IMG/VR virus record: IMGVR_UViG_3300009103_000046
Coordinates: 1 to 50,119 of that record
Direction: 5' to 3' (one strand)
DNA: 50,119 bases
Origin: a virus
The notes beneath the pieces are model-generated. The model saw nothing but the letters and a program-made list of their open reading frames with translations. It searched no databases and was not told the origin of the DNA. Both the position numbers and the translations under genes were made by a program. This document shows, piece after piece, positions 1 through 49,266 of this stretch; the stretch's first letter is position 1, and every line of letters starts with the position of its first letter.

Positions 1-54
1 CCCTTCACATGATGATAGTACCAATGATGCTATAATATATTTATCTATTTTCAT
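1..54 (-). CDS. Lipoprotein N-terminus (partial, runs off window)
   Basis: The first 18 codons read MKIDKYIIASLVLSSCEG. This is a short signal peptide with a charged start, a hydrophobic core (YIIASLVL) and a lipobox-like LSSC, so the mature protein probably begins at Cys16 as a lipid-anchored lipoprotein. The ATG (54-52) overlaps the TGA of the preceding gene in the classic ATGA arrangement, and GGAAGG lies just upstream. The rest of the protein lies outside the window, so no function can be assigned. A small phage lipoprotein could be a spanin or an envelope-modifying factor, but nothing here decides it. Confidence 0.6.
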   Translation of the reverse strand, partial: MKIDKYIIASLVLSSCEG

Positions 55-263
55 TTTTTCCTCCCAACTGCGATTACGTCACCCTCTTTGCACTTACGAG
101 AGTAGACATGTATTGTCGTAGGCGAGTACTTATGAAACAAAGAATCATAAATCTCGATTGTGCATACGCCCTTTTCTGCTTTGTCTACCGTTCCTATGAT
201 TGTGTATTCAACCTTGGGCTTTGAATGCGCCAAGCAGCCCACAAACAATAATATGTTAATCAT
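51..263 (-). CDS. Small exported or lipoprotein-like protein, 70 aa
   Basis: The protein starts MINILLFVGCLAHSKPKVEY. It has a very short hydrophobic stretch and a Cys at position 10 (FVGC), which could be a minimal lipobox, although Phe at -3 is not typical. The remainder alternates beta-type residues and ends with KEGDVIAVGRKK, a small beta-barrel flavour. The ATG lies in an 8-nt overlap (ATGATTAA) with the preceding SH3-like gene, whose 3' end supplies the ribosome-binding site GGAGGTGAT. The next gene starts inside its stop codon, so the pair is translationally coupled. Function unknown; export is an inference from the N-terminus only. Confidence 0.6.
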   Translation of the reverse strand: MINILLFVGCLAHSKPKVEYTIIGTVDKAEKGVCTIEIYDSLFHKYSPTTIHVYSRKCKEGDVIAVGRKK

Positions 264-468
264 TTATCACCTCCATCCACTTTTCATAACAAAAGAAATG
301 TATTTCATCACCAACCAAGACACTCCATGCTGCTCCCCAATCATCTGCTATAGATTCGGCTACCTTTTTTATTAAGATGCCTGTCTTTCCAATTAAATGA
401 TGCTTGGTTACAAGCATAGTGTGGTTCTCGATATGTTCTACAAATTTTACTAAGTCACCCTCCTTCAC
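256..468 (-). CDS. SH3/KOW-like small protein, array copy 10 (70 aa)
   Basis: Starts MKEGDLVKFVEHIENHTMLV and ends MEVIND. It begins at a GTG (468-466) preceded by GGAGGTGATA, which lies inside the previous gene. It carries the family pattern: K-x-G-D-L-V, then a G-I-L-I strand, then W-S-V-L-V, and a terminal EVI. It is one of the longer copies, with an extra stretch after the second strand (KKVAESIADDWGAA). It is the last of the array; the gene after it is not a paralog, yet the EVI codons still carry a GGAGGTGAT site for that gene. No known function. Confidence 0.8.
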   Translation of the reverse strand: MKEGDLVKFVEHIENHTMLVTKHHLIGKTGILIKKVAESIADDWGAAWSVLVGDEIHFFCYEKWMEVIND

Positions 469-646
469 CTATCACCTCCAGGCTGCTGGTGTATGTATAT
501 GTTGTGCTGTTGTTTGTAATCCAATAAACCTTCCAGAAAAATTCGTCCCGAGCAATAATGACTCCAACTTGGTTTTCAACCTTTTGAGGGCTATATTCGA
601 CATTTTTCCATTTATTCTTTAGCTTTACTAAGTCACCGACCTTCAT
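455..646 (-). CDS. SH3/KOW-like small protein, array copy 9 (63 aa)
   Basis: Starts MKVGDLVKLKNKWKNVEY and ends LEVIGEGG. The ATG sits in a 14-nt overlap with the previous copy, whose TTGGAGGTAATTA provides the ribosome-binding site. Strands GVIIA and WKVYWIT match the family core. Tyr/Thr-rich residues (TTYTYT) precede the C-terminal LEVI. Small basic-N-terminal beta protein; function unknown. Confidence 0.82.
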   Translation of the reverse strand: MKVGDLVKLKNKWKNVEYSPQKVENQVGVIIARDEFFWKVYWITNNSTTYTYTSSLEVIGEGG

Positions 647-818
647 TAATTACCTCCAAATATTCTACCTTATATTTTGAATGTCCACCGTTACACCAAA
701 TCACCCAAACTATTCTGTCTACATATGCACCTCCAGCTTTCACGCTGTGTGTTGGGTTAGATGTCACCACACCAATCCTATGGAAATACTTGCACCTCAC
801 CAAATCACCGACTTTCAT
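633..818 (-). CDS. SH3/KOW-like small protein, array copy 8 (61 aa)
   Basis: Starts MKVGDLVRCKYFHRIGVVTS and ends YLEVINEGR. The start is an ATG after GAGGTGATCA, in a 14-nt overlap with the previous gene. The G-V-V-T and V-W-V-I-W strands are clear. The central insertion (HSVKAGGAYVDR) differs from other copies, as expected for a variable loop between conserved strands. Confidence 0.82.
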   Translation of the reverse strand: MKVGDLVRCKYFHRIGVVTSNPTHSVKAGGAYVDRIVWVIWCNGGHSKYKVEYLEVINEGR

Positions 819-987
819 TGATCACCTCAAAAATGTAATCAAACTTATAAAGCTTTTGGATTTCATCATCGACAAGAACCTTTATCCAAGTGATGTGCTG
901 GACTTTTGTTTCTCCCAAATAAATTCCAAACAAATGATTTATTGCTCCGTGTTTGTAAACTATCTTGACTAAGTCACCCACATTCAC
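805..987 (-). CDS. SH3/KOW-like small protein, array copy 7 (60 aa)
   Basis: Starts MNVGDLVKIVYKHGAINHLF and ends FEVINESR. It begins with GTG (987-985) directly after GGAGGTGATAA. The core strands are F-G-I-Y-L-G and I-K-V-L-V-D. The last codons (GAA AGT CGG TGA) are the +1 reading of the next gene's ATG AAA GTC GGT GA, so the tail residues E-S-R are forced by the overlap. Confidence 0.82.
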   Translation of the reverse strand: MNVGDLVKIVYKHGAINHLFGIYLGETKVQHITWIKVLVDDEIQKLYKFDYIFEVINESR

Positions 988-1132
988 TTATCACCTCCAG
1001 AGATTGCTCAAGAACAATTGATTCTCTGCCGTTATCCCACTCTACCAATATCCACCACACACTGTGTCTAAAGACTGGCCCCTTCGATGTTCCAATGTCA
1101 TCCTTGAACTTTACTCTAGTTCCAGCTTTCAT
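974..1132 (-). CDS. SH3/KOW-like small protein, array copy 6 (52 aa)
   Basis: Reads MKAGTRVKFKDDIGTSKGPV at the N-terminus and LEVISECG at the C-terminus. The motif is a variant (K-A-G-T-R-V instead of K-V-G-D-L-V), but the W-W-I-L-V-E-W strand and LEVI end place it in the family. It opens the second half of the array: its ATG follows CGGAGGAAAGAAT and a promoter of its own. A 14-nt overlap couples it to copy 7. At 52 residues it is near the minimum for this fold. Confidence 0.8.
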   Translation of the reverse strand: MKAGTRVKFKDDIGTSKGPVFRHSVWWILVEWDNGRESIVLEQSLEVISECG

Positions 1133-1153
1133 ATTCTTTCCTCCGATGAATTG

Positions 1154-1181
1154 AATATAACACGTTTGGAGATATTGTCAA
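1154..1181 (-). promoter_or_regulatory. Sigma70-type promoter inside the SH3-like array
   Basis: On the minus strand TTGACA (1181-1176) is followed by a 16-nt spacer and TATATT (1159-1154), with TGT just before the -10 (extended -10 type). The predicted start is near 1147, giving a leader of about 15 nt that contains CGGAGG before the ATG at 1132. The -35 begins immediately after the stop codon of the gene ending at 1183. It sits at the only non-overlapping junction of the array. Confidence 0.7.
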
Positions 1182-1182
1182 A

Positions 1183-1398
1183 TTAATTTTTTACTAGAAC
1201 TAGCCACTTCTCCGCATATGGTTTTGTTTCATTCGTGGCTGGAAAGTGTACATCCCACATAAATTCTCCCCTATCATAGGTAACTTCTATCACCTCTCTC
1301 CAGCCCAATTGTCTTACGATGATGCCAACTTCATCTGGCTCGTATGAAAACACCGCCACCCTCACTAAGTCTCCAATTTTGAACTTGGGCTTAGGCAT
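1183..1398 (-). CDS. SH3/KOW-like small protein, array copy 5 (71 aa)
   Basis: Starts MPKPKFKIGDLVRVAVFSYE and ends KWLVLVKN. An N-terminal extension (MPKPKF) precedes K-I-G-D-L-V; strands are V-G-I-I-V and M-W-D-V-H-F. It is the longest copy and has no C-terminal LEVI, which fits its position: no gene overlaps its end, because the next one has its own promoter and ribosome-binding site. The ATG lies in an 8-nt overlap (ATGCCTAA) with the gene before. Confidence 0.8.
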   Translation of the reverse strand: MPKPKFKIGDLVRVAVFSYEPDEVGIIVRQLGWREVIEVTYDRGEFMWDVHFPATNETKPYAEKWLVLVKN

Positions 1399-1576
1399 TC
1401 ACTTTCTCTAGTGCCTCGCACACATCATATTGATTAAAGCCATCACGACTACCACTCATTGCCCAAACAACAAAGACGCTAGATTTTGTTACTTCGACAA
1501 CAATGCCATAGCGCCCTTTAAGAGCTTCTGGTTTCCACTTGACGAGATCTCCAACTTTAAACGGTTTTGGACTCAT
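1391..1576 (-). CDS. SH3/KOW-like small protein, array copy 4 (61 aa)
   Basis: Starts MSPKPFKVGDLVKWKPEALK and ends ALEKVNA. It has a short basic/proline extension like copy 5, so copies 4 and 5 may be each other's closest relatives. Strands are Y-G-I-V-V-E-V and V-F-V-V-W-A. The start overlaps the previous gene by 20 nt; GGTGG, about 5 nt upstream, is a plausible weak ribosome-binding site. Confidence 0.8.
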   Translation of the reverse strand: MSPKPFKVGDLVKWKPEALKGRYGIVVEVTKSSVFVVWAMSGSRDGFNQYDVCEALEKVNA

Positions 1577-1715
1577 GCGCCACCAGGTTCAAAGTCCATT
1601 CAGAAGTAATTCTACCGTCATTGTGCAGGACTATCCACACCTGCTTAGCTACTTGCTTTAATAAAACAACCGCCTCTTCTTCTATTAATGTGCATACCAA
1701 ATCACCCACCTTCAT
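1557..1715 (-). CDS. SH3/KOW-like small protein, array copy 3 (52 aa)
   Basis: Starts MKVGDLVCTLIEEEAVVLLK and ends NLVAHESKTV. It follows TTGGAGGTAGTAA and overlaps the previous copy by 14 nt. It keeps the first motif and the V-W-I-V-L strand but lacks the LEVI ending. Its last 20 nt are overprinted by copy 4, so the tail AHESKTV is dictated by the start of that gene. A glycine turn between strands 1 and 2 is not obvious, making this the most diverged copy. Confidence 0.75.
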   Translation of the reverse strand: MKVGDLVCTLIEEEAVVLLKQVAKQVWIVLHNDGRITSEWTLNLVAHESKTV

Positions 1716-1869
1716 TTACTACCTCCAACTTTGAAACATCTTCCATATAAATATATTCAGAACCAAGCCATGCTACTTCCACAAGACATTCACTTATTAT
1801 GCCAGTTACCAAGCCAAATTTATCCCATCTTCCATGTGGCAAAAACTTTACCAAATCACCGATTTTCAT
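1702..1869 (-). CDS. SH3/KOW-like small protein, array copy 2 (55 aa)
   Basis: Starts MKIGDLVKFLPHGRWDKFGL and ends KLEVVNEGG. The ATG follows TTGGAGGTGATAA and lies in the standard 14-nt overlap. Strands are F-G-L-V-T-G-I-I and V-E-V-A-W-L-G. The C-terminal LEVV codons contain GGAGGTAGT, the ribosome-binding site of copy 3. Confidence 0.82.
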   Translation of the reverse strand: MKIGDLVKFLPHGRWDKFGLVTGIISECLVEVAWLGSEYIYMEDVSKLEVVNEGG

Positions 1870-2050
1870 TTATCACCTCCAAATCTTCTATTCGAACATT
1901 CTGAATAGCGTTCCAATCTGACCAATGAACTGTGACATATCTCTCATCTATAATAGCTATGACTATTCCAAACCCATACATTAACTCCGGTGCTTTATAT
2001 GGATTTGCATCAGCAACTAATGAACCTACTTTTATCTTGCTATTATTCAT
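1856..2050 (-). CDS. SH3/KOW-like small protein, array copy 1 (64 aa)
   Basis: Starts MNNSKIKVGSLVADANPYKA and ends DLEVINENR; strands are F-G-I-V-I-A-I-I and V-T-V-H-W-S. It is the first gene of the array. The ATG at 2050 has no visible ribosome-binding site, and a promoter-like -10 overlaps it (see 2048-2076). The true start, or the way this gene is translated, is therefore uncertain; no other ATG, GTG or TTG precedes the family motif in frame. The coding call rests on clear homology to the other copies and the 14-nt overlap with copy 2. Confidence 0.7.
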   Translation of the reverse strand: MNNSKIKVGSLVADANPYKAPELMYGFGIVIAIIDERYVTVHWSDWNAIQNVRIEDLEVINENR

Positions 2051-2077: not shown

Positions 2078-2233
2078 TTATTTTTGATTTAAAAAATTAT
2101 AAAAACAAACATAAGCGAAAACACCACTTAATCCACACCAAAACCAACTTCCATTTGCAAATGCAAACACACAAAAATAAAAGTTTAGAACAGAACAAAA
2201 TAGACTCACCCACTTACTGTTTAGAAAATTCAT
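2078..2233 (-). CDS. Small membrane protein, 51 aa
   Basis: Starts MNFLNSKWVSLFCSVLNFYF and ends YNFLNQK. Two hydrophobic segments (about residues 9-27 and 30-46) separated by a short polar turn suggest a small two-pass inner-membrane protein. The ATG overlaps the TGA of the resolvase gene (ATGA), and AAGGAG seven bases upstream, inside that gene, is a good ribosome-binding site. I recall similar tiny membrane proteins in marine T4-like phages, but cannot name a function. A role in holin-like or superinfection processes is only a possibility. Confidence 0.65.
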   Translation of the reverse strand: MNFLNSKWVSLFCSVLNFYFCVFAFANGSWFWCGLSGVFAYVCFYNFLNQK

Positions 2234-2763
2234 TTCGTCTCCTTTTCAATAAGTAGTCCTGCTCTGGCAATAACCACTGAGTCTGCTTTATCATCGGTTC
2301 CTGGCTTGGGGTTACCGAACCTCGTATATTCAACAATAAAGTTTTTTGGGTATTCGCTCTGCGCCCATTCAATAACCTTGAGCTTTGTATTCTCTCCACG
2401 CTTAATCTTCAACCCAACAAGCCCTCTTGCCTTATTCGCCGCAATAGATACGGAGATTACACCATACAAGTCACGCACCATGTAAGACACCATGCCATTG
2501 AAACGTTGAAGTTTTGCCATTGTCATTGCTGTTGTCTTTCCTCCAGAGAACATAATGAATGGAGACTCTATGTATACTTCCTCTATATGATATTGATTAT
2601 AATTTAATTGTAAATAATTCTTTAATTGATCACATCTATTCTCCAATTCATCTTTGGAGCTTAGTTTCACTACTTGACAATCAATTAAGTCTGCGTTAGA
2701 GTTTAAAATGGTTATCCCAACCCGGCTCGTACTAACATCCAAGCCTAATACAAATTTGTTCAT
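2230..2763 (-). CDS. ruvC: RuvC-like Holliday junction resolvase
   Basis: 177 aa with an RNase H-like fold of the RuvC type. Acidic residues are in the expected places: Asp9 in LGLDVSTSRVG, Glu66 in VYIESP, and Asp158/Asp161 in GTDDKADSVVIA near the C-terminus. The family cleaves four-way DNA junctions using two metal ions. In phages it resolves recombination and replication intermediates before packaging, the job of endonuclease VII in T4. Length is normal for the family. The ATG at 2763 has no ribosome-binding site and sits essentially at the predicted start of a consensus promoter, so the mRNA is probably leaderless. The gene is coupled to a 51-aa membrane protein by an ATGA overlap. A transposase-type RNase H function is less likely given the size and motif spacing. 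Confidence 0.85.
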   Translation of the reverse strand: MNKFVLGLDVSTSRVGITILNSNADLIDCQVVKLSSKDELENRCDQLKNYLQLNYNQYHIEEVYIESPFIMFSGGKTTAMTMAKLQRFNGMVSYMVRDLYGVISVSIAANKARGLVGLKIKRGENTKLKVIEWAQSEYPKNFIVEYTRFGNPKPGTDDKADSVVIARAGLLIEKETK

Positions 2764-2770
2764 AACTTAC

Positions 2771-2799
2771 ATTATAACATATTTTTTGGGGTTTGTCAA
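2771..2799 (-). promoter_or_regulatory. Perfect consensus sigma70 promoter
   Basis: Minus strand TTGACA (2799-2794), 17-nt spacer ending in TGT, TATAAT (2776-2771): all twelve consensus bases plus an extended -10. It lies in the 39-nt gap between the last structural gene and the resolvase. The predicted transcription start is about 2764-2763, at the ATG of the resolvase itself. Confidence 0.88.
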
Positions 2800-9580: not shown

Positions 9581-12500
9581 CTTTCATCCTCCTTGTTGTT
9601 GGGATTGTTTTTGTTTTTGAATCCCTCCTAGAAACCAATTTACCTTTGGTTGCTACGGGCTTTTTCGACTTTTTACTTTTACTTTTAAACGGATTCAACA
9701 TTCTGTTATAACCTATATAATTTTCTATAACTATTCCCCTAGATAGCATTTGCGCTCTATTCTCAGAAGAATCAAGAAGGGCTTGAGAATTTTTGTTTCT
9801 ATTCAGCAATGCTCGCTTTTTCCTATCTGCGTTTATATTTTCTGGTGGTTTTCTTGCCAAAGGCTCTTTGTCTTCTTCGAGCATGAAAATTTCACCAGCA
9901 GAATCAACCTCTTTGTTGCTAGATTTAGTAAACAAATTATTACTAACATCCACCATTCTGCAAAGCTTGGAGGAGCCTTTTATCGAATTATACCCAGCAT
10001 CATCCAAATCCACAAATACAGGTTTTGATAAATCGTACAGCCCATCTCGATTCTTTAAAAAACCTTTAAAGAATTGAACCTTCTTAATATTTGAAAAATT
10101 TTGATGTGCCATTTCAGAAGTTAAGGGGTTTGAAAAGATATCTATTTTATTTTCTAAAATATTGTTTTTAACTGCTGCTGATCTAGATAAAATTAATGAT
10201 CTTATTTGCAATGGTATTTCAGAAGGATTTAGAGTTTTGTTTTTTATTGACTGAGAAAACACATTTTCCTTTTTACTAAAATCTATCATTGAGATTTCTT
10301 GTTTACTCATTGCCCTTTTAGAATGAAAAGCCATAGCTATTTCATTTAAAGACTCTTTGTTTTTAAGCATTTCGTGTGGTTTTGATTTTATAATTTTTGA
10401 TAAGTTCTTAACAGCAGCGCTTTTGCCACCTAAATACGCAGATGCATCAATAAGGTTATTGTTTTTTAAAGCAGTTCTTACTACCGCCATGTTAATAGGT
10501 ATATCCATATGCCCATCGGGAATTTCATTTATAGTTTTTGCTACTTTCAACAAATTAAATAAATCATTATTTTTTGCAGCTTCTGCTAGGGAGCTTGTAT
10601 CTATTTTGATACTTCCGACATTTATCTCTTCTGGTGTGAAATTTAAATATTTATTTTTTTCTATATTTGTCATTTGGCCTATACTATTTGAATCTAGTGA
10701 TTTTAAGTCTTTTAAGTTGGTGCTTGGTTTTTGTTTAAAATATTTTGATACCTCCCTATTCGCCCTCTTAATAAAATCAGACTTCTTTACCTTTAGGGGA
10801 CTCTTTTTTGAAAATTTAATAAAATTATATTTTATTCTAGCAGTTGGTCTTTTGATATAAGTTTTTGAAAGAACCTTCTTAAGCTTTAAGGTAATCTTGG
10901 TTTTTGGTCTTCGAGAGCCAACTGAATTTTTAGAACCAAAGTTTGAATATTTTATTGCATATCTTTTTTCAATCATTTTAATTATTAAAGAAACTTTTTT
11001 GGAAGCCATTTGCAAACTTTCCATTGTACACGTGGAAGGATTTATTTTATTTAAAAACATCTTTTCATCAAAATTTATATTTAAAATTCCACAAGCATCT
11101 TTAGCCGCTTCTATGCCTCTTATTATAAAACTGTTTGATAGCCCCGCATTTGTGGCACTTTTAGAAATAATACGAGAATTGTCAACACTTTTTTTGACTC
11201 CGTGTTCTTTTAAAAAGTTTTTAATAAATTTAGGTTTAATTTTTGCACTTCGCTTATCAACCATTTTATTGGCTGATATACGCTTATTAAAATATCTTAT
11301 GTTTTCATGAAAAGAAGATAACCTTGCCAAAATATTTCTAACATATTGTTTATACTTATCTTTTACCTCTATATCGACAATATACCCATATTCACCTTGT
11401 GTTAGATTTTTCAATTCATGATCTGAAAACTGAATTGTTTTTATTCTATTGTCCAGTCCTGATTTTACTTCTTCTATCGTGATTATTTTTTCTTTATCTC
11501 CGTCAAGTGCTCCTTCTTCTTCTATGGTTAGTCCTTGTCTAAAAAAGGCTTTTTTCTGCAAATCGGGCACACTTATTAATTCTTTTGGCTTAAGAAGGTG
11601 TATTGCTTTTTGCAAATTTCTTTTTGATGGAATTCTTTTTTCAGTTTTTTTATTAATTTTTCGATGTTTCTTTTTATTTTTTAATTTTAAATTAATTGCA
11701 TTTTTAGACATCAATTTTTTAGGCACCTTAAATCTAGAAATTGAAATATTGCTTATTTCTAAAGTATCTGAAATTTCTGAATGTAGCTTTGGGTCGGCTT
11801 CATGGATTTTATCTCCAAATCTGGTTTTTCCGATTGCCAAATTTCCTAAATCAACTAAAAATATTCCTTGAATATTCTCTTCTGCGTCTGGTGTAAGTCC
11901 ATATTCATAAAGGGCTTTTGGCTTCTGTTTTTCCTTCTGCGGTTTGCGAGAAGGAACCAATCTTGGCTTTCGCTTTTTAGCAAATGCCTTTGGAGATAAA
12001 TCATTATAAATTAATTTATGATTGTCAACTCGTACCAAATCTAACACAGGGTGCGACTTTGAAGTATGAAAACTACCTGCCATCCAAGTGTTGTTGTGCC
12101 TATGAATTGGGCCTGCCCAAATATCATCAGAATCTTTTATTCTAAATTCATTAGTTCTTTTAGATATCTCGCCTTTTTTTATAATCCATTCCCCAGACAA
12201 GCTACCACGAAGAGAATTCCTTTTTGCATTATTAAAAGAAGTCCCATGCTTTTTATTATAATCTTCCATTGACGTATAAGTGAAAGCATATAGCGCCATA
12301 TTTTTAATTTCATTTTTATGTTCTTTAGGAATAGAAAATTTAAACTCATATTCATAAACATATTTATTATTCATATTCTTAGACAAATAAATAGAATTTC
12401 GCTTTTTCACACTTTTAGATTTACCTATAAACCACGGACTTTTACGAAGTGGAATTGGAATTAATATTTTGCCACCATTCAATTTATTAATAGTAATTCT

Positions 12501-18139: not shown

Positions 18140-21100
18140 CTATTCTTTCTTTTTCCCAGCAACAGTTGAGATGGCTGGAAACACTATAGCCGGCTTTACT
18201 GAGTGTGTTATGCTTTTTATCAAATCCACTTTATTCACAGTTGTTGAATTTCTGCTGTTTCCTGATAAATCATAAAAATTGGTTTCTGTATCGTCAGTTG
18301 GGCTGTACTCTTGTGTCAACCTTCCTGCTCCCATCATATACCACAATTCCAACGAACTTATGCTTAATGGTGAGCCTTTTCTACCTCTCTTATAAATTTT
18401 AAAAGCTTGTCTAGCCGTTAGAGCAGAACTGTATATAGTGAGGTTGTCTATTTTCCCATGAAAACCATCGAACGCATTTTCAGCGGTATCAATCTGTGCT
18501 CCTATAGATGCATGTTGTGACACTATACTATACCAAGCGCCTGTTGGGGCTGTTCCTGATTCTGCTAACACGACACCTACCCCGTTGATATATAAGGATG
18601 GCTTATTGGATGATGATGAGGCATCATATTGCAAAACAAGGTGTACCCACTCCCTGAGATTAATAGCATTAATGTCTGTTTTCCAATATACCTTACCGGA
18701 GGTGTTAACCCATTTCGTAAGAAATACAATTCTATTATCGTCTTCAATATAAAGCGACACATCTCCATATCCGAAATCAAGAATACGTTGATCACCTGTG
18801 CCTAGATTATTTATCCAAACAGAAAATGTCATTTTTGATGTACCAGTCCCGGATCCATTTCCTATTATTCCATCCCATGTTGCCCCTGTTCCAAAATTAA
18901 TATAACTATCAGTGCCATTGAAGTAGGCATATTCATCAGCTTTTTGGTCCACAACAATTTCGCCATTCTTGGGTGCATATCCAAATATATTTTGCTTTCC
19001 GCTTCTTATCCCATAATCATGCCCAATGGTTTTATCAATCCAGCTATACTGGAAATCGCTTCTTGGTAATGTGCTTCCAACGAAAGCGTTATCATGTCGC
19101 ACAACCAAATCTGGATCATCTTGGGTGTGCTTGTCACTTGCTCTATAGCTGGTGTTTCTATGGTATTTGTGAAAATTTGGATAATCCTCATTCAATATTG
19201 ACATCTTCAACGATAAACCGCTCTCAGAGTGTCTGTTGTGTTTTGACATATCATAGATTATTGTATTTCCATCTATTCGCTTGTATCTGTTATCAGTACT
19301 ATCTCCCATGCCATACCAAGCAGCTAAATCAGAATTGAGCCCAAGGTTAGTGAGGCTTTTCTTTCGCCCATTGCCCTCTATCATAACAACTTCTGCTAGC
19401 GTTAAAGATCTGTTAAATATTGCCATTTCATCAATGTAGCCATCAAAAAACCCGCCCAAACCGACACTCGTAGTTCCTATCCAAGCATGCTGCTCACCGA
19501 ACTCATTATTAAATCCTTGATAAATTTCTGAGCCCCCAACAGTACCAATGGTTGTACTCCAGGATATCTCTATACCATCTACATACAAAATAGGATTATT
19601 TGATGTGGAAGATGGATCATAAGTTAAAATAATGTGGTGCCATTTATTTATAGAAATGATACCATCTGCTGTTATCCGAGTCATAGGATCAGTTGTTGAC
19701 CACTCTGTTGTAAATGACACCTTTCCGCCATTCATAACAGTTAAAATAGTACCATCGCTATCCATAGATATTATTGGATACACAGCTTCTGCTACGCTAT
19801 TAATATTTATCCAACAAGATATGGAAAATGAAGGATCAGTTTTCAATACTCTCTTTCTGGCTCCGCCAAAATAATCAATAGCGACACTAGATGGTACCTG
19901 TGCTGTTAAATTATTAGATGAAACACTATCATAAAATACCGAAGCAGTATCCGAAGGATGATCAAATGTCCACCAACTTAACGGACTACCAACTGAGTGT
20001 TTTGTTAAATCATAATATTGATTACGTAAGTGAAACTTCAGAAGTTCATCAACACTTGATTGTGTAAAATACTTATGCCATATCGCAACATCATCAACAT
20101 ATACCGTCAAGTTATTTATTGAATTGATACGAACCTCATCCAAACTAGAAGGGTTTGCACTGAACCATGCTTCCAAATTACTATTGGTTTTAGTCCAATC
20201 CCCACCGGCACTCATCACCATGTTTGACGCCCTAACTAATGAAGCCCCATCTTCATATAAATAGAATTTTACATCATTTGGATTTTGCACATCCCCACCA
20301 GCTACTTCAAAAGCCCCATCAAAAGTAAAAACATAATGTTTATATGTTGAACCATCAAGGTTAAGAGCAAAACTAGTCTTGACATACTTCTGATCATGAT
20401 AATATATATATATTGACAACTCGCTTGTATTGGTGTTAAACGCCGCGTAGCCAACTTCAAGGCTATCATCTCCGTTATAAAGATTGAACAATTTCTGAAC
20501 TGACACGGTTAGAACACTAGGATCCATCTTCATCCACCAAGAGATTGTTATTCCATCATCACCAGATGCATTTACCGAGTATGTTTCGCAATGAACGCTT
20601 GTATTGGTAATCTTTATGGCTTGTGATTTTGGATAATCAAACAACAAGGCATCATTCCACTTATATGAAGGCATCAGCTTTACAGCCTCTTCTATCGGTG
20701 CTCCTCGGGAAAAACTTGTAACAATGTCATAACCATATTCAGAATCTCTTCCTCCGTGCCCCGTATACCGTGTTAAAAGCGTCTTTAAGCCTTCACGCTT
20801 ACCTAGGTGGCTATTAACTCTAATCGTGCCATTTTCACCGCTTCCTGCGCCTCTAACGCTAAGGTTTCTGTATGGGATTGCATTGTATGGAGAATACTCT
20901 CCAGAGAATGCATCAAGGTAGCCACGGGTTTGGATTTCCGGACCGCCTGGTGCGGAGAATCGAGTTGTAAATACAGTTTCGTTCTTCTGTGTTGAGTCTC
21001 TAAATGAGCCACTTGGCAAAGTCAAAACAACATCTTTAGCATAAAGAGTGGGGGTTATACTCATTTTCCCATCCACAATGCTAGATTTACTAGGATCAGC

Positions 21101-24100
21101 AGACAATAAGTTGTTAGAACCCTTATTGTCTATTACCGCCTCTATTGAATCACTGACATTATCGAAAGAATAGTAACTAACACAATATGTATTGTATTCA
21201 CTATGATTACTAATGGTATATCTTATTTTGCCGTCATTATATAACTCTCTTACTTCACCAAGATCGAAATCCTTATCCCATATTGTGACATCATCTATAT
21301 AAATTCTAAAGTCAGTGTCTCCAATCTTATCAAGTTGTGCTGCTGCATTGATATGAGATTTGTGCTTATTTTCTGTTATATTGCTGGACAAGTATACTGA
21401 TGTTTGTTCTTCTCCGTCAACATAAAGCTTTATGGTTGCGGCGGAGGCACCTGTTCCGGAACCGTCCCATGTTGCTCCTCCATTGTGAGTAAACACGTAG
21501 TGCCTCCATGTGTCATCGTCATGTTGCGCCGAAAAGCCCATCCGAACAGATGTTCCATCGCTGTAGGTTGTCTTGACGTGAAGTTCGTTGGCAGCACTTG
21601 GCCAATAAATGTCAATAACATCACTTCCACCAGCATCATCTATAGAAAACAAATCAACATCGGCAAGACTACCAGGTAATTCACCAGATGGAATTTTTAA
21701 CCATAAGCCTATAGTCCAGCCATTCTGAGCCGTGAATCCAGAGAAGCTGCTGTCTGCCAAGAGAGTTTGGTTTAAATACATTCCCCTACCAAGAGTATCA
21801 ACCACCTGTCCATCGGGGGAGCGGTTACTGAAGGCGCCATAATAGTTACCAGACAAATATGGAGTTTGTCCTATCATCGTCATAACATTGGTTGTCGCCC
21901 ACAAATTGCTTTGCGAATTAATCGACAATGGAATATAATTCAATATATCAGAGTTGGTTCTATGATAGAGATTCATTTCCTTTTTACCAGCGGCAACGGA
22001 AATATACTCATATCTCTTGTGGTAATTCCCAACCCTATTGCCAACCTTATCATGCGGTATATTCTTTACATTAACGGGGCGTTTGGCATGCTCCTCTCTA
22101 TATCTTGTTGCTTTTTTCTTCCAGTTGTCTGGGTACCTGAGTGTTCTGATATCTACACCATAATCAGCAGGAGCAAAACCAATAGCACCATCAGCAGCAC
22201 CGGAGCCCGTATGCTCCCCCACCAGCAATCTCCATGCTTCAGGGCGAGAGTACATATCATCTAAATTTTTGTATTTATCTGTTCCATTTGCAAATGTCCA
22301 AGTTGCAGAATAAGGAAAATATGAATTACCCCAAGGCCTTGCGCCTGTGTTATTTCCTTTTGTCCCAGGAATTGCCTGGGTTATTATAAACTTATTGTAA
22401 TCGCCTGATGGGTTTCCAACATGCGGTGCGACTCCAAATTTTCCTGTTGATTCAATAGCATTTTTAATATTGGTTTCCAAAATTGAATTACCAGAGCCTA
22501 AAGAGATGGCGATACCATTGGGAACAGTAAGAGACTTTTTCGCACCACCATCCACAAAAAAAGCTTTAGATGAATCTGCTATTGTTAAATGATTATTAGA
22601 CGCAGTATTATCTTTGATATTTGATGTTGAATCTGTTGCATGATCGAAACTATAGTAGCTTACCAAATAATCAGCAGCTAGTGAGTGGGTTGTTATATCA
22701 AAATAATTTGAACTATTATATAATTCAGTAACATGTTGAGGAATGAACCACTTATCCCACACAGCTATATCATCAAGCGAAAAAATTAAATCTGTATTTC
22801 CAATTTCATCAAAGTTTTCAAAAGAACGCAGGTTAGAAGCATCCATTGCCTGTGATACATTTGAAGTGCTAGAGCCATCCAAAGACACTTCGGTGCCATC
22901 AACGTATAACTTGAAATCGTTAAATGCATGTGCTGCTGAAGTTTTTCCGTCAAATGTTATAACATAATGTCTCCATTTGTCATCTCCATGGTTAGTTACA
23001 AACTTAGCAGTAGTCCTCTCATTATTCCAATACCTCGCTGTGGCCTCAAGAACATTACTGTTGTCTCCGTAGTAAAGGATTAAAGCAGTGTCCCCACTAT
23101 TATTCTTAAACTCAAAAAGCACATGAACACCTGCTCTTGGCAAATGGGTGGCTGGTACTTTCATCCACCACGACAAAGTAAATCCATTTCCATTTGTGTA
23201 CCCAGAGAAATTCGAATCATACATTTTGTTTTCTGCTAATTTTAAGCCTTTTGAGTATGCCGCATTATATGCATCAAATGCAAAAGTGTGTTCAGTGCCA
23301 TCTGTTGCATTTAAAGTAAAGAATAGCCCGTCCAGCAAAGCCTTGTTGGCATTAGAAAGCGTCCAATTCCAAAAATCTATTTCTTCCACATAAGCCCTAT
23401 CCTTTCCAACTGGATGGGTTTGGGTGCCACCTTCAGTTCTTAATGAGGTATCTACCTTATTTAATCTAACATGTCTTGATTGGTGTCCTCCTACCCAAGT
23501 TTCAGTAAACGGCCCTTGCATTGGAATCTCATTTGTTCTATCAACAGTATCTGAATGTAAATTGGTTACAACAACATTCTTTGCAAAATTTTCCGAAATG
23601 GTTTTGTTATACCCACTGGTAACGGAGGCAGAATGAAAATTCATTGGATAGGTGCTAATGCCCTTTCTCTTATAGAAATATTCACTACTATCGCCATCAG
23701 GCATATTGCCATAATCTAAAGCATGTTCACCACAAGTAACTGTAAAATTATATTTTTCTTTTTCATTTGGGTGCTTCTTGTCTAAGCATGCTGTCTCTGG
23801 CTCTACGCCGGTTCCTTCTCCTTCTCCAACTAAAAGGACATTTTTAGGAATGTCTTGTCCCCACCAATGACTTGTCGGACCTAATGGGCGCACATGGTGG
23901 TGAATGTTGAGTCTATCTTTATTCTGATAATAGTTTATGCCACCATGGATTGTACTCTTAAATACTCCGGAAAACCTATAAGGATGAGACATTGCTTCCA
24001 AAACATATGTTTTTGCAAAATATGCTTGAGATGTCTTAATATCGTAAAACTTTATGGGCTTTGGGTTAGTTACTTTTTTAAGCTGTGCTCTCAAAAGATC

Positions 24101-27100
24101 AGAAGGGCTATTGAGTATCCGTCTATGTTTTTGCCATAAGCAATTTTTATTTTCTATTATGTTGGTGCTGTCGTAATCTCCATCTGCGTCTGTATCGACA
24201 AGATACGTTGGCGCATGTCCGGTTTTCCAATTGTATGCAAAATAGTTTACACCCTTCATTGTCCCTTCGGTTGAGGTTTTCTGCCCAATGTAAGGAAATT
24301 TCTCAACAAATTTGTTTCTTTCCAATATATGACTTTCAACAATATTCTTGACTGCTGGTGCGAATTTAGCTGACGCTGGTATCATCTGTTGAATGCCGTA
24401 TGAAACAGCTTCGTCTATCCACTTGAAGTATTCAAAATATTTTTCAGGATCTGGGATATTCTTAACCTTATTAAAGAAAATGGTTTTTAAATCTGCCATT
24501 TCTTTATAGCTTGATCTGTATCTGTCGGCAGGCGCACCCATCAAGTTGCTAAAGTCTTTAACTGTTGCGAACATATTTATCATTTCATCGGAAACAGCGC
24601 CATAAGGACTCTTCTCGAACATATAAAAATTGTCATTTCTATCATCATCTCTAAAGAAAAATTCCTCTTTCTCTCCAACTATTTGAACCCCATCTGATGA
24701 CATAGCGTTCTCTGGATTTCTTTTCTTTGCTGCGTAAATGAATTCTTTGTCAACAGCATCTGTTGAGCTTTGAATGAAGTTAATTGCTTGACCGCTGTTG
24801 TCTTCTTTGGAAATGTCTCCAATATATGATAAGTGCGTACCACCACCGGAAAAATTCTCAATTCTTAAAGAGTCTTCATTAATATTGGTAGTGTTGCCAC
24901 GATTGCCCCGAGAGCCATTCCACATTTGAGTTATTGTTATAAACTCTGAAACAGAACCATCAGCAGGAGATGCTGTTATGAGCCCAGAGGTGGTAGCAGT
25001 AGCATCATTGATTGTTAAGGCTATCCTCTGTAATGCTAATGCTGGAGTGGTGACACCGGAGGTTCCAATGGTATTACCAGTCACTGTCGTAACGCTCGAA
25101 TCAGTGGTAAAGGTGTGTACTGTTCCGAAAACATCTTGAAGAAATATCTTTTTTCCTGTTGTTGTGAAGTCTGCCGATGTCCATGTAGCTGGCGGTTCAG
25201 GAATAGGTATTGAAATTTTGGCTGATGCTTTCTTCACTGTCTCCGCAGATTTATCTGGGACAATAAACTTGCCATTGGAATCAGAACCAGTTACTGTTGC
25301 AAAATCCCAATGAATAGCCAAAGTATCTATCTGTGGTGTGTGTTTATCGGAGCCATGAAAAACATTATCACTCCTATGAGGATAGGTAGTTCCGTAGCTT
25401 GTTGCATCATATGCATGTTGTTTGACATCTTCATTAGAGAGGTAGCTTTGCCAAAACCTAAATTGAGATATCTTGGCGTCACTCTTCTCAAGAGCATCAC
25501 CAGTAAAGTTTGTTATGTGGGCGCCAACATATGGCCTTTTGGCGCAAGTAATCAAGGACTCTCCTGTTGACTTTAAACTGATAGTCCCAGAAACATGAAA
25601 TGGCCCTCTTTTGATGTCATTACCAACAGTACTTAGTCCATAAAAATCAACTATATAGGTATCGGCGCTACTGCTGATTCCTGATAGGGAGCCTACAAAA
25701 GGATGATCTGCATGTCTTACTCTGGCTGCTAAAAGCCATTTTTCATTATCATAAGCATTGGCGAAATATGGACTCATCAACTGTTCGTTAGGAGGCACAG
25801 GATTAGTTGGAACATTGGTGTTCGGATTTGATATGGAACAAGATAAGTGAAACCTCACTCTATCGCTGCCTTCATAGTCTCTAATAGCGTATGCTCTCAT
25901 TGAAAAGTCATCAGTTGGCCAATTTAAATCCGCAGGGTTGTTCACATTCGCTCTATGAAATCCAAAAAGCGAAGCGGTAGCAAATGGCGTTATAAAGTGT
26001 CCTGTTTGTTCTCTTGTTAACTTCTTTGGCAATATGAACTCACATTCCATAGTAAGCCCAGAATATTTTAAATCCTTCTGTATGTGTTTGGTGTCTTCTC
26101 TGGTGACGTAGGACACATTCGCTGGAGTGTCAACTGTTAGGTGGTTTGTGCCTTTATTATCTTTAATTGTTGATGTGGTATCTGCTACGTTATCAAAAGT
26201 ATAATAACTGACAAGATTATCTGCTACTAATGGGTGGGCTAAAATGTTATCGATTTTATATAATTGGTTAACATACTCTGGTGTTCCACTTGCATTATCA
26301 AAATAAGAATCCCAAATAGACACATCATCTATCCAATGCTTAATAGTGGCAGTTGATCCAATCTGAAATTTGTCCCAAGTCCCCAAGTCAGTTGCTGCCT
26401 TGTTGGTGCCGCCAGGCGCTGTGGAATCAGCGGTGAACTCAGTTCCATTCACAAATAATTTTAAATTATCCGCAGCACCAGAGCCGTCTGTTGCTCCGTC
26501 GTATGTTATAACGTATCGATACCACCTTCCATCATCAACACCAGTAAAATCATATGTGTGTTCAGGCCCGGATACTCCGCCATTATGAAATGCTTTAATC
26601 TTCAAATATTTCGTGGCGGCTGGGAAATATACATCAAGAGCCTTCTGGCTGTTGGCGTCTTTGACTAAAAATATATTATTTGACGATCCAAAAGGCAATT
26701 CCCCACCAGCGATTCTCATCCAAAAGCTTAAAGTAAATCCGTTGCCATTGGTAAATCCAGTAAACGAAGTATCCTCTGCAAATGTATCATTCATATACAA
26801 GGCTTTGCCGTAGCTATACAGTGACTCTTGTCCGTTTAGGAATGTATACCTAGAGGTGGATGAGCTATGGTAAACCGAACCTGCGAAGTTATCAGGGTGG
26901 TTAAGATTCAGAACCGGCTTTGCTATTGACTTAAATTCGTAATTGTCTCTTAAGGAATACGTCGAATTATCAGCATAAAGATTCAACTTTATAAGTTCAG
27001 TGTCAAACCCAAAGCATCTAAAGTAATTTCGAAAAGCCTTTTCGGTTCCTTTCGATTTGTATATATACGTCAAGTTGTTATAGATGTTTTGATAAATCTG

Positions 27101-29575: not shown

Positions 29576-31599
29576 TATTTTATTACTCTAAATTTGAATT
29601 CTTTTGGTTGTTCTACCCACGAACCAGCATAGCCATCATAAAACGAAAACCTGAATGTATACTGGTAACCGGTCTCGAAAATACTCATCGGCAAATCAAA
29701 ATAACTCCCAGAACCATCATACGATAGACGAGAATATTTACCACCAGTACTAGCGTAATCATAGGCTAATACTTCAAAATTGTCAATAGTCCTTAATACT
29801 CGATACGAGGCAGAAGGTATTGTTATATTCTCTGGTGCTGACTTAACTTTCGAATAAACATTTGGAGACCAGTTCTTCTCTCTAGCATAAAGCCTAAATC
29901 TTGCCGTTTGGTTTTGATGATATTCCTTTCTCAGGTTGGGCATTGATATTACATATTCTGCTCTAGTTGCCGTTTGGGATGGTTTAAATTTAATTGGCGT
30001 AATTGCTGATCCAGTTAAAACTTCCTCAGAACCTACCAGCCATACATCATACAGATATGGTTCTGCTGCTGGGAGTGTGCCAGTGACACAGACATCTGCC
30101 CTGTATATCCCTTTTGATACTCTGCTGGCTTCCCATGCGGTTGTTGCAGCGGCAGCGGCGGAGCCGCTTACAATTTTTACAAACTTAATACCAGTTGCGG
30201 CTGCTCCAACTGGACCAGCAGAAGTACCAGAGTACAACTTAACTTTGGGCTTTGTAGCACTACTTCCGCCGATGTCCTGCAATTGTCCACCAGCATAATT
30301 GTAAAAATATAAACTATTATAATTCATAGCAGAAGGCAGCAGGGAACTTTTTATATGAAAATTATTTCTATCATCTTTAATGATGTCGTTAAATTGAGCT
30401 TCCAGCACAGGCTTCTTATAAAAGAATTCCGTGCTTCTTCCGAAGAACATTTTTGTAAAATAAGACTTCTTTGCTCCATTGGGGTTTTTAACTGCATTGG
30501 TATCTGTTCCATCATTTGGATAATAAGCCTCTTGAGCATCTGATAATTTTATTCCAAATCCATGATTAACCTTGCCTGAATCTGCATCACCAGATAAACC
30601 TGTTATCCACTGCTCGACAAGAGTGGTGACATCAACTTTCATATTTTCCACACCCTTGTCAAAATACTGGGTGGCTGTGGGCGAAGCATGATAATCACCG
30701 CCAACTGATGCCCAGTTGCCATTGCCACCAGCAAATCTAGTGGCGCCAATACCACCATTAATAGTTAAGTCAGAAGCATTGCCGTTTGTCACGGCAGGAA
30801 TAACTGTGTTTCCGCCGATTCCGGAAGTGGTTTGCTTTATTGTCAAAGTGTCATTCGAATTGGTATCATCACTTAAAGTCACAGTTAATTTTCCAGCGTG
30901 TCCTGCTGTTCCCTCAATGGCAGTCTTTAATAGGGCGGCGAAGCCGCCTTGAGTGGTGGCTGTCTCTCCTGTGCCGTACCATCGAACAGTGGTACCCCCA
31001 GCAGAGGCGCCATTTGCATAACTGCCGCCATATTGAAACTCATAAGTCCTCTCAGTTCCATCAGTAGATGTTAGGGTAATTCCCGGAGGTGAGCCATCAT
31101 CTAATCCGCCAACACCATTGCGTGTTCCATTAATAATTTTTATAGTTGCACTAGCGGAGGCATGAGTCCCATTAGCATTTATCCAATTGGAACCAGACTG
31201 ATTTTGCGTTACGTCTCCATACGTTGCCATATCTAGTCCACGACCCTCTTCCCACGAAGACGATACCGCCAATACTGTAAGGTTTATCTTTTGTGGTGTG
31301 GTATATACATGCCTAGCGTTATAGAGATTCAAATAAAAACTAACCGAGTCTTTTGCTGGGATTTTTCCATCTGTTCTGTCTTGTTTGATTTTATCAATGG
31401 GAAACTTTATAAGTATCCTTGACATTTCAGAAGATTTAGTTGCACTAACGCTATTAAGCCTATTATAAATTGAATATACTTCTAATAAGTCAGAAGCCCC
31501 CATATTAGAGCCAGTTGCCCTTGTCTCTGAGTCGCTTGGCGCATAAAATGCATTTGTTATAGTGTTATCTGCGCTGGCTGTGTATCTTAAAATCGGCAT
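29575..31599 (-). CDS. Tail structural protein with an inserted beta domain (674 aa)
   Basis: The N-terminal half resembles a DNRLRE/carbohydrate-binding-like beta domain as I recall it: WEEGRGLDM and SNWINA at residues 116-142, continued by GGDYHASP and VDVTTLVEQWITG at 300-334 and NHGFGIKL. Between the two halves (about 150-290) sits a Gly/Thr-rich domain (STDGTERTYEF, then ALLKTAIEG, then IKQTTSGIGGNTVI) that also occurs in the giant neighbour. The C-terminal half has FFGRSTEFFYKKPVLEAQF and a closing immunoglobulin-like block (YQYTFRFSFYDGYAGSWV). It overlaps gp6 upstream and the giant gene downstream by one base each (TAATG). Likely part of the baseplate-attached appendage. Confidence 0.7.
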   Translation of the reverse strand: MPILRYTASADNTITNAFYAPSDSETRATGSNMGASDLLEVYSIYNRLNSVSATKSSEMSRILIKFPIDKIKQDRTDGKIPAKDSVSFYLNLYNARHVYTTPQKINLTVLAVSSSWEEGRGLDMATYGDVTQNQSGSNWINANGTHASASATIKIINGTRNGVGGLDDGSPPGITLTSTDGTERTYEFQYGGSYANGASAGGTTVRWYGTGETATTQGGFAALLKTAIEGTAGHAGKLTVTLSDDTNSNDTLTIKQTTSGIGGNTVIPAVTNGNASDLTINGGIGATRFAGGNGNWASVGGDYHASPTATQYFDKGVENMKVDVTTLVEQWITGLSGDADSGKVNHGFGIKLSDAQEAYYPNDGTDTNAVKNPNGAKKSYFTKMFFGRSTEFFYKKPVLEAQFNDIIKDDRNNFHIKSSLLPSAMNYNSLYFYNYAGGQLQDIGGSSATKPKVKLYSGTSAGPVGAAATGIKFVKIVSGSAAAAATTAWEASRVSKGIYRADVCVTGTLPAAEPYLYDVWLVGSEEVLTGSAITPIKFKPSQTATRAEYVISMPNLRKEYHQNQTARFRLYAREKNWSPNVYSKVKSAPENITIPSASYRVLRTIDNFEVLAYDYASTGGKYSRLSYDGSGSYFDLPMSIFETGYQYTFRFSFYDGYAGSWVEQPKEFKFRVIK

Positions 31600-33395
31600 T
31601 ACATTATTATTCCTTTGATATCAGATATTGGGTATTTTATTTCTAAAATACAATTTTTTGGTGTGTTTATGTATGTTCCGTCTTTTGATAAAAAATCATC
31701 TATGGAGCCAATGTTCCCTGAAGAGTATCCTTCGCTAGTAAGAGTTTTTGGAGTTACTTTTATGGTATCTACAACCCCCTTTGTTTTATTAATAGTGTTG
31801 TAGATGCTTGTTATATACATCGGCTCACCAATATAAAATTCTTCTTTAAATAGTTCTATTAATCTATCTTGCACTCTTGACAAAACTTCTACTCTGTCGA
31901 ATTTGGAATCAACAACAAATTCATAATCAAAACCAACATTTATAATCTTAGCATCCTTTATATCAATCAAATCAGAAATTATTTTATTTTTGTTAAGCCA
32001 AGTTTTTAAATTATTTTTTGTTGTATCATTAACCTTCATTAAAAAATTATCACCATCCTGAGATATTACATACAGACACAACCTTTTATTGGTTCCACTT
32101 GGGTCATTATAAACTGAAACTCGCTTTATGCTTCCAAATTTTGGTGGCATTTGGTAGCAATAAGCCTCATAGTCGTATTTTGTAACTATCCTATTTTGAG
32201 CAGCAAAAATAGCATGAGCGCGGTACTTTATTTCGTCTGTTGATGGCAAAGAAGCATCATACACTATTTCTGTTGAATTCGAAACTTCTACACTATTTCT
32301 AATAAAATTATAATCTGCTGAATAGAAAGATTCACTATCATACGGAAAATCAATCTCTAAAGATGATACTGTGGTTAGATTGTCGATGGCTACATTGTTG
32401 TCAACTCGATTATTCGAGGTAAAAGTGACTTGCAAAACAGTATTTGAAGGCACTATTCCAAACTTATCAGTAGATATTAATTTATTTGGATCAAAAGCTG
32501 TGTCTGTGATGAATCCTTTCCCGTTCATATTTAACATGACAGATGCCGGGTCTATGATACCAGTGCTTTCAAATTCTGTTTCTGAACCATATCCAAATTG
32601 TAAATATGTTCCACCAATATCTTGAGTAACCACAAACCTTCTTGACGCTATATGTGGTTTTAATATTGATCTAACTCCATCTTTTTTAGCATTAGGGTTT
32701 GTAGTTTCTAAATATATGACTTCTTGAGACAAGTGATCAACTTCATAATACTCATGCCCCTCAGAATCAAAAACCGATATTACTTCATTGATTCCATTTG
32801 GCCCAATTCTAACTTTTCTAAACTTTTCATAATTGCCAACATCAAATTCATCATAATATGAAGTCCCAGATTTTACCTGCCCGGATGATCTTAAGACGTA
32901 GTGAGTTGCCCTGTTTGTGTCTGGATCATACCTACCAGCTACCATTTCGAGTGTTGGATCATTAAAATCAACATCTTCTGTTAATGTAAATATGGCGCCA
33001 TTAGTGGCTTTAAGATTAGTACCTCTCTTAATAACTGGGAACAACTCTTCTATTGGGCCCAAGTCATTTTCCATTGCTGGTATCAACACATATAAATCAA
33101 CAAATCCAAAAGCAGCCGGCCTACTGAAGAATTTATACCCCATTTGCTCTGCCATTTTTCTTACATTACTATATTGAGTAGCTGTTTCGAGGAAGCTCTC
33201 ATTAATATTGTAATCAAGATAATAACTAAGTATATCGCCAACATATGCAACTGAATCAAACACCATTGAACCAAACGACGAATCATTAAAATCAGTATAC
33301 CTGTTAGGGTAGTATCTCCTTGCATGTTCTATTAAATCTTCTTTTATCTCGTCAAAACTAAGACTTGTATAATTTATTAACGGCTTCTTTGGCAT
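31599..33395 (-). CDS. T4 gp6-like baseplate wedge protein
   Basis: 598 aa. The N-terminus (SFDEIKEDLIEHARRYYPNR, then YTDFNDSSFGSMVFDSVAYV, then LSYYLDYNINESFLETATQY) is the typical opening of T4 gp6 and related baseplate J-like wedge proteins. A run of beta strands and a helical C-terminal part (LSRVQDRLIELFKEEFYIGE) complete the fold. In T4, gp6 forms the inner ring of the baseplate and joins the six wedges. The gene follows gp25, the same pairing as in many T4-like phages. GAGGAGT precedes the ATG. It ends in TAATG, coupling it to the 674-aa protein. Confidence 0.88.
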   Translation of the reverse strand: MPKKPLINYTSLSFDEIKEDLIEHARRYYPNRYTDFNDSSFGSMVFDSVAYVGDILSYYLDYNINESFLETATQYSNVRKMAEQMGYKFFSRPAAFGFVDLYVLIPAMENDLGPIEELFPVIKRGTNLKATNGAIFTLTEDVDFNDPTLEMVAGRYDPDTNRATHYVLRSSGQVKSGTSYYDEFDVGNYEKFRKVRIGPNGINEVISVFDSEGHEYYEVDHLSQEVIYLETTNPNAKKDGVRSILKPHIASRRFVVTQDIGGTYLQFGYGSETEFESTGIIDPASVMLNMNGKGFITDTAFDPNKLISTDKFGIVPSNTVLQVTFTSNNRVDNNVAIDNLTTVSSLEIDFPYDSESFYSADYNFIRNSVEVSNSTEIVYDASLPSTDEIKYRAHAIFAAQNRIVTKYDYEAYCYQMPPKFGSIKRVSVYNDPSGTNKRLCLYVISQDGDNFLMKVNDTTKNNLKTWLNKNKIISDLIDIKDAKIINVGFDYEFVVDSKFDRVEVLSRVQDRLIELFKEEFYIGEPMYITSIYNTINKTKGVVDTIKVTPKTLTSEGYSSGNIGSIDDFLSKDGTYINTPKNCILEIKYPISDIKGIIM

Positions 33396-33405
33396 TTTTT
33401 ACTCC

Positions 33406-33789
33406 TCAATATGATTTCGATGAATTTGAAACGTTCAATGATAATGTATCAGATACGCTAGCACCTTGAAAAGAATAATATATTTTAATATTTATTCCCA
33501 ACCCCTCTTCAAGCAATAACACAACTACATCCATTAAATTTAAATAAGGCAAATATCTTTTTATTGCATCTGATACTTCAGTGGCAATATTATTTAATTC
33601 ACCTCCGGATGGATTTTCAAACAAATATTTTTCCACCCCAACGCCATACTCTGGGTCTGAGATTTTTTCACCTGGGAAAGTAAATAACAAATTCTTTAAA
33701 TGAAATTTAGCTAGCTCTTTTAAGCCACTAACATTATCATAGCCATAGGAATTATCAAACTTTAAAGGAATTTTAGGAGCAAATATCAT
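33406..33789 (-). CDS. T4 gp25-like baseplate wedge protein
   Basis: 127 aa, the normal size for the GPW/gp25 family. Diagnostic segments are LKELAKFHLKNLLFTFPGEK (residues 23-42), the following P-E-Y-G-V-G-V-E-K-Y-L-F-E, and INIKIYYSFQG near the end. In contractile-tail phages gp25 sits at the sheath-baseplate junction, where it initiates sheath polymerisation together with gp6 and gp53. The small gap to gp6 (10 nt) supports the operon. The upstream GGTGGAT is a weak ribosome-binding site. Confidence 0.9.
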   Translation of the reverse strand: MIFAPKIPLKFDNSYGYDNVSGLKELAKFHLKNLLFTFPGEKISDPEYGVGVEKYLFENPSGGELNNIATEVSDAIKRYLPYLNLMDVVVLLLEEGLGINIKIYYSFQGASVSDTLSLNVSNSSKSY

Positions 33790-47990: not shown

Positions 47991-48217
47991 TAAGGCTTGC
48001 GCCCATGCCAAGTGCTTCTGTCTGTTTCTTTGGTTGTGACATCTGGTGCTGTTCCTTTTGATGTCTTGACAAGGGGAGGGTTCATTACCACAACCTCTCC
48101 TGAATCGTCAACTTGTAGCTTAAATCCTTGGAGAACAGGGACGATATCGCTCTGCTCCATTAAAGACTTTTGCAGAGCCATCATTACGGCTCCTACTGCT
48201 TGATTACTTAATTTCAT
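47990..48217 (-). CDS. Small conserved phage protein, 75 aa
   Basis: Starts MKLSNQAVGAVMMALQKSLM. Residues 4-22 form an amphipathic helix, then EQSDIVPVLQGFKLQVDDSG, then a Pro/Lys/Thr-rich tail. TTAGGAGTACAAA, inside the HAD gene, is a good ribosome-binding site; ATGA overlap with that gene. I recall nearly identical N-termini in other T4-like marine phages, always unassigned. Confidence 0.7.
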   Translation of the reverse strand: MKLSNQAVGAVMMALQKSLMEQSDIVPVLQGFKLQVDDSGEVVVMNPPLVKTSKGTAPDVTTKETDRSTWHGRKP

Positions 48218-49264: not shown

Positions 49265-49266
49265 TC

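Follow-up and report, generated by a model that had tools for sequence, protein, structure and literature searches.

The stretch of DNA analyzed here (the window, at its full length) comes from a virus record of 50.1 kb in which baseplate genes of the myovirus type are present. Near its left end lie ten consecutive small open reading frames (ORFs) on the minus strand, extending from 2050 to 256 and read from right to left. The array is located 3' of a gene for a RuvC-like resolvase and is followed at its far end by a 70-aa ORF. The features are given below, those of the array region in the direction of reading.

2771..2799, minus strand: perfect sigma-70-like promoter (TTGACA-17-TATAAT) ahead of the RuvC-like gene
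2230..2763, minus strand: gene for a RuvC-like Holliday junction resolvase, located 5' of the array (phrog_159, E 2.9e-10)
1856..2050, minus strand: copy 1, 64 aa, head of the array, KVGSLV variant
1702..1869, minus strand: copy 2, 55 aa
1557..1715, minus strand: copy 3, 52 aa, among the most divergent
1391..1576, minus strand: copy 4, 61 aa
1183..1398, minus strand: copy 5, 71 aa, last ahead of the internal promoter
1154..1181, minus strand: sigma-70-like promoter (TTGACA-16-TATATT, 11 of 12) that lies between copies 5 and 6 and divides the array 5+5
974..1132, minus strand: copy 6, 52 aa, first past the internal promoter, KAGTRV variant
805..987, minus strand: copy 7, 60 aa, GTG start, NVGDLV variant
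633..818, minus strand: copy 8, 61 aa
455..646, minus strand: copy 9, 63 aa
256..468, minus strand: copy 10, 70 aa, GTG start, KEGDLV variant, end of the array
51..263, minus strand: ORF of 70 aa that overlaps the last part of copy 10, with the same GGAGGTGATAAATG start
31599-33395: gp6-like baseplate gene
33406-33789: gp25 baseplate gene

An earlier note on this DNA, made by reading the sequence, had described the ten genes as tandem paralogs, three of them shorter than 56 aa. Both statements held: all ten ORFs exist, the short ones measuring 55, 52, and 52 aa, and a hidden Markov model built from 225 members outside the window recovered every copy (Z=12380), with E values from 5e-11 for copy 8 to 1.7e-3 for copy 6, the other weak match being copy 3 (E 7e-4). 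The 70-aa ORF did not match the family profile. In the alignment, the copies share a framework of M-K-V-G-D-L-V, G-I-V, V-x-W, and L-E-V-I. The motif K-V-G-D-L-V, which the note had taken to be common to all, proved to be so only approximately, since copies 1, 6, 7, and 10 deviate from it and just the G and the final V occur in every copy, and the G-I/V-V strand, likewise ascribed to all the copies, is absent from copy 3 in the alignment.

We then searched for the array in related viruses, as the note had proposed, and found the family to be widespread. An iterated profile search retrieved 1250 members in 158 related viral sequences (1.7 Mb, some of the sequences overlapping each other), while none of the reversed sequences used as a control scored under E=0.01. 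Tandem arrays were found here too, with runs of up to 23 members among the loci read and with 6-32 members per contig in twenty contigs. Clustering at 60% identity divided the 1250 members into 913 clusters, 697 of them singletons. The family fits no Pfam or PHROG family: Pfam KOW (PF00467) gave 12.5 bits with copy 4 against a gathering cut-off of 22.3 and no hit with the other copies, no KOW hit at E 0.01 was obtained among 79 family members, and any one PHROG family matched at most 5 of these 79 at the same threshold, the best match of the window copies being phrog_1690 (E 0.0065). A tblastn search of cultured phages, for which two of the copies and an artificial sequence of typical make-up served as queries, gave non-significant hits only, a peptide-pattern search for sequences closely related to copies 6 and 10 found none, and the junction pattern described below gave two hits in the GTDB genomes, both in contigs of metagenome-assembled genomes, and pointed to no firm host.

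The RuvC-like gene served as an anchor for locating syntenic loci, and in L094-L098 it is adjoined by an orthologue of copy 1. Since 17 of the 25 contigs with a related RuvC-like gene (all of them fragments) lack the family, its patchy occurrence suggests that it is accessory and dispensable to the lineage carrying that gene. ClpS was rejected as a fixed partner of the arrays, as it is present in 6 of 35 contigs only.

Consecutive genes of the array are joined in a characteristic manner. Of the nine junctions in the window, six have reading frames that overlap by exactly 14 nt, and the other three differ. The six are as follows.

1846..1881, minus strand: junction 1/2, 14-nt overlap; tail LEVINENR*, Shine-Dalgarno GGAGGTGAT, ATG and KIGDLV of copy 2
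1692..1727, minus strand: junction 2/3, 14-nt overlap
964..999, minus strand: junction 6/7, 14-nt overlap, GTG start
795..830, minus strand: junction 7/8, 14-nt overlap
623..658, minus strand: junction 8/9, 14-nt overlap
445..480, minus strand: junction 9/10, 14-nt overlap, GTG start

Copy 1 ends with TTG GAG GTG ATA AAT GAA AAT CGG TGA, which reads LEVINENR* and carries the Shine-Dalgarno sequence, and another frame of the same end, ATG AAA ATC GGT GAT, gives MKIGD of copy 2. In its typical form, a segment of ca. 33 nt, TTGGAGGTRATMAATGAARGTCGGTGAYTTRGT, encodes the tail of the upstream protein (LEVINESR*), the Shine-Dalgarno sequence and the start of the next gene, and MKVGDLV, with the upstream stop TGA inside the GGTGA of the junction. 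The consensus over 404 different junctions is TTGGAGGTRATMARTGAARGTCGGTGAYTTRGT. Family-wide, the exact 14-nt overlap was found at 480 of 776 unique junctions, about 38% being of another type; among other same-strand neighbors in the same contigs it occurred in 5 of 943 cases, the usual overlaps there being -4 and -1. Because many of the loci had been found through the junction pattern, we checked for a search bias. In loci located by way of the RuvC-like gene, 20 of 29 junctions showed the overlap; once the junctions matching the search pattern were dropped, it was present at 358 of the remaining 643.

We then asked which parts of this segment serve the protein and which serve the junction. 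The motif GDLV occurs at 329 of 393 overlapped and 180 of 226 non-overlapped starts and, being still common at the latter, is a structural motif of the protein. The third base of its glycine codon is fixed at the overlapped starts (GGT in 384 of 393, versus 128 of 226 at the non-overlapped ones), because GGTGA must hold the upstream stop. At the other side of the junction, the tail N[EG]xR was found at 175 of 405 overlapped gene ends versus 12 of 260 free ends, and the glutamate codon of the tail is GAG in 96% of the overlapped ends, 72% of the free ends, and 42% of cases inside genes, a preference that a Shine-Dalgarno sequence would demand. Since the tail motif and the codon bias are both tied to overlapped ends, the often repeated LEVINESR tail is for the most part a translation signal that is itself read as protein. 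No terminator-like stem-loops were present at the junctions; the single minus-strand example within the array lies in copy 10.

The earlier note had also placed the array behind host-type promoters and had seen in this a sign of an early module. The promoters in question are the two sigma-70-like ones listed above, ahead of the RuvC-like gene and, inside the array, ahead of copy 6; directly ahead of copy 1 there is no comparably strong promoter. The argument for an early module was not borne out. Sigma-70-like promoters precede 25 of 136 array heads, against 7.6 in shuffled sequences, but they precede 136 of 462 long genes in the same contigs and, being at least as common there, are no specific sign of an early array. 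Neither array heads nor long genes are often preceded by the T4-type late motif TATAAATA.

Structure prediction, another of the checks that the note had proposed, was carried out for two of the ten copies, the typical copy 8 and the divergent copy 3. AlphaFold modeled copy 8 as a five-strand SH3-like barrel (pLDDT 92) and copy 3 with the same strand order of the barrel (pLDDT 93), both with a short 3-10 turn (HHH) ahead of the last strand, so that the postulated SH3/KOW-like mini-fold was seen in both models. Their structural matches in the PDB are barrels of the SH3-like type and comprise eS4, HspQ, PetP, PWWP, Tudor, and chains of MutS2 and Spt5 complexes, at TM 0.65-0.83 and with E values that are nearly all weak (0.01 or worse). 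Among predicted viral structures, the nearest belong to unnamed proteins 50-85 residues long and to the T4-type gp30.5 (BFVD Q400H0, TM 0.80), which resembles the copies in size and in its predicted small SH3/KOW-like fold but shares 17% identity with them in the aligned part, the likeness being known from its predicted structure. Most framework columns of the family alignment carry 2-4 bits and most loop columns 0.1-0.5 bit. A scaffold carrying many specificities, each maintained individually, would be expected to show such nearly unconstrained loops, and a relaxed structural constraint in the loops after an ancient duplication would also fit.

One could imagine that the proteins are stand-alone KOW-like domains that bind to RNA, RNA polymerase, or the host ribosome, with every copy adjusted to its own site or transcript. 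The best structural neighbor of copy 8 is indeed the SH3/KOW portion of ribosomal protein eS4, those of copy 3 are the MutS2-disome complex and PWWP/Tudor domains, and the best match of the family profile among PDB sequences is Spt5 KOW (E 0.014), with uL24 and NusG lower. We nevertheless regard this explanation as unlikely, as none of these matches is strong, the fold is a generic one, the single Pfam KOW score stays below the cut-off, and the net charge of the members, from -11 to +9 with a mean of -1.0, indicates no consistently basic surface.

To see how the content of the arrays changes, we compared related loci. The most telling pair is L010 and L012, which are 99.5-100% identical and have 17 and 16 copies, respectively, the difference being one 156-bp cassette. 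The extra cassette is flanked by two exact copies of the 20-bp repeat ATGAAAGTCGGTGATTTGGT, and without it the Shine-Dalgarno sequence of the preceding gene stands directly ahead of the next gene. In several further contig pairs, cassette-sized gaps were found with 19-47 bp of common sequence at the start codon. L016 and L059 carry 21 copies each and have ten cassettes in common (ca. 83% identity), with one adjacency conserved. In L094, the closest relative of the window (its RuvC-like protein is 86% identical), the common copies 6, 8, 9, and 10 stand in the order 6-8-10-9, no counterpart of copy 7 lies in their midst, and ahead of them stand seven other copies.

The commonest homology block between loci was one cassette long. 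Right ends of the blocks fell 10-40 nt past a start codon in 76% of cases, versus 12% expected, and left ends fell at most 25 nt ahead of one in 60%, versus 12.5% expected, although the conservation of the junction itself partly favors block ends there. For this reason the L010/L012 pair weighs most: it is a single event, seen in metagenome assemblies, and the only case free of that bias. The breakpoints of shared segments thus appear to fall at conserved gene borders, the place at which homology between gene boundaries would put them.

The copies themselves evolve under purifying selection, as maintained proteins would. Outside the junctions, 107 pairs at 70-99% identity gave a median dN/dS of 0.15, and about one pair lay above 1, which rules out ongoing positive selection or current hypermutation. 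The variety of the arrays would consequently stem from the shuffling of old, maintained cassettes. The diversification suspected in the earlier note stands insofar as there is one scaffold with unconstrained loops; the copies, however, are under purifying selection, and what changes is the set and order of whole cassettes, by gain, loss, and permutation at the dual-use junction, a feature that the note had not mentioned. The dN/dS values also bear on a mostly neutral expansion, in which the junction repeat drives the turnover and the arrays are a stock of genes of low function kept by mutation pressure. The patchy presence of the family, its generic fold, and the high turnover of content evident from the number of clusters and singletons would all agree with that, but the rarity of pairs above 1 and the persistence of 14-nt junctions with Shine-Dalgarno and start intact across hundreds of cassettes do not, and we find such an origin improbable.

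Taken together, we rather favor the view that the array is a self-assembling cassette library of small SH3-like barrels shuffled through their junctions. Each cassette encodes one small predicted barrel with a fixed framework and nearly free loops, and the junction segment does four jobs at once, supplying the upstream gene with its tail and stop and the next gene with a Shine-Dalgarno sequence, a start codon, and the MKVGDLV strand. As the same segment is present at most junctions, recombination between any two of them could add, remove, swap, or permute cassettes while keeping the frames, stops, and ribosome sites intact, and presumably the translational coupling as well. Related phages accordingly hold different combinations drawn from a shared pool. 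We infer that the exchange is caused by homologous recombination or annealing at the junction. The loops may bind different targets, most likely host or defense proteins, the set being reshuffled to match varying hosts. The scaffold with its loops, the accessory distribution, the purifying selection, and the fast turnover of the set are the reasons why our best guess at the function is that these are probably binding proteins against host or defense targets, reassorted by recombination. That they are instead protease adaptors redirecting host Lon/Clp to many host targets, together with phage ClpS in some relatives, we consider very improbable, since the match of HspQ, a Lon specificity factor (5ycq), to both models (E 0.03 and 0.08) is a likeness at the level of fold and the family alignment shows, beyond the framework, neither a conserved degron nor a conserved motif for protease docking, even though ClpS genes adjoin or stand near the array in L094 and some other contigs.

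The cassette library proposed here has parallels among known systems. Integron arrays likewise consist of tandem, shuffled gene cassettes drawn from a shared pool, but here the Shine-Dalgarno sequence for a cassette is carried by the one before it, and homology alone appears to suffice for exchange. In the nin region of lambda, conserved gene-boundary sequences have been proposed as drivers of the mosaicism of lambdoid phages. Gene exchange at short border homologies is an old idea (PMC3029335). Lambdoid borders resemble the junctions of the array in that short sequences allow whole-gene exchange with the frames unbroken; they differ in that the genes there are unrelated and each border is individual, while the array has one tandemly recurring junction between paralogues of a single fold that codes for part of both proteins. 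The PeSL cassettes of T4-type phages (Arbiol 2010 and Comeau 2014, cited in PMC4503421) are, as far as that account goes, also repeated elements at gene junctions that mediate the shuffling of small accessory genes. As described there, however, they consist of a promoter and a stem-loop between genes, whereas the junction of the array is coding and contains a Shine-Dalgarno sequence; an early promoter with a stem-loop was not found at the junctions, the only strong promoter being that between copies 5 and 6. In Cluster K mycobacteriophages, start-associated sequences (SAS) form a conserved repeat that overlaps the ribosome-binding site of many genes (PMC3203893). These lie upstream of the starts of many gene families, while the block in the array spans the start and reaches both into the gene and into the end of the upstream one. 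In the open-access literature we found no description of this family or of phage SH3/KOW arrays with shuffling, nor of a tandem single-fold array in which a dual-coding junction is both translation signal and exchange site.

The array would offer a concrete answer to the question of how small accessory genes can turn over without damage to the operon, namely, that the coding ends of the genes are themselves the exchange site. It is possible, and we put it forward tentatively, that it represents a viral modular repertoire of binders, in which dual-coding junctions let phages reassort specific inhibitors of host or defense proteins by the exchange of single cassettes. Built like a binder library, this large and uncatalogued family, with its 1250 members in 1.7 Mb of viral sequence, may be a source of candidate inhibitors of defense systems and host enzymes.

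A variant of the SH3-like family, found in the related viral loci L003, L004, L032, and L057, carries approximately 70 extra residues separating the second and third framework blocks and reads KVGDLVYLYRRKKPGLGLVV ... VSWIKLPSDYEM ... WFPIDWFKK. This insertion variant is conserved across contigs. Family-like SH3 domains were also seen in larger proteins: those of 160 to 180 aa encoded by the loci L031, L046, and L070 have such a domain at the C terminus and share an N-terminal domain. On the minus strand of the locus L063, a 155-aa ORF comprises an apparent GIY-YIG nuclease domain plus a family member (DVNREMKVGDLVK); it could be a true GIY-YIG/SH3-like fusion or else a start-site artefact.

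The phage-encoded ClpS (PF02617) was found in 6 of the 35 contigs searched (G006, G007, G008, G019, G020, and G040), with E values of about 1e-27 to 1e-31. In L094, the closest relative of the window, its gene (10118-10438, plus strand) separates two parts of the SH3-like array.

Other genes of the window, all on the minus strand, are as follows.

51-263, minus: 70-aa ORF, hydrophobic N terminus
18140-29575, minus: 3811-aa ORF, several repeats, LamG/concanavalin-like by eye
48214-48519, minus: PHROG match named phosphoheptose isomerase (phrog_1238, E 1e-28)
49267-49944, minus: methyltransferase, near the right end

The 70-aa ORF, at the end of the array, has a cysteine in a possible lipobox-like setting; its translation starts at an SD-type junction shared with the array genes, but the ORF does not belong to the family. 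The 3811-aa ORF, judged from its sequence, probably encodes a tail-fibre or adhesin-type protein, and the two right-end genes (48214-49944) are possible surface-sugar accessory genes.
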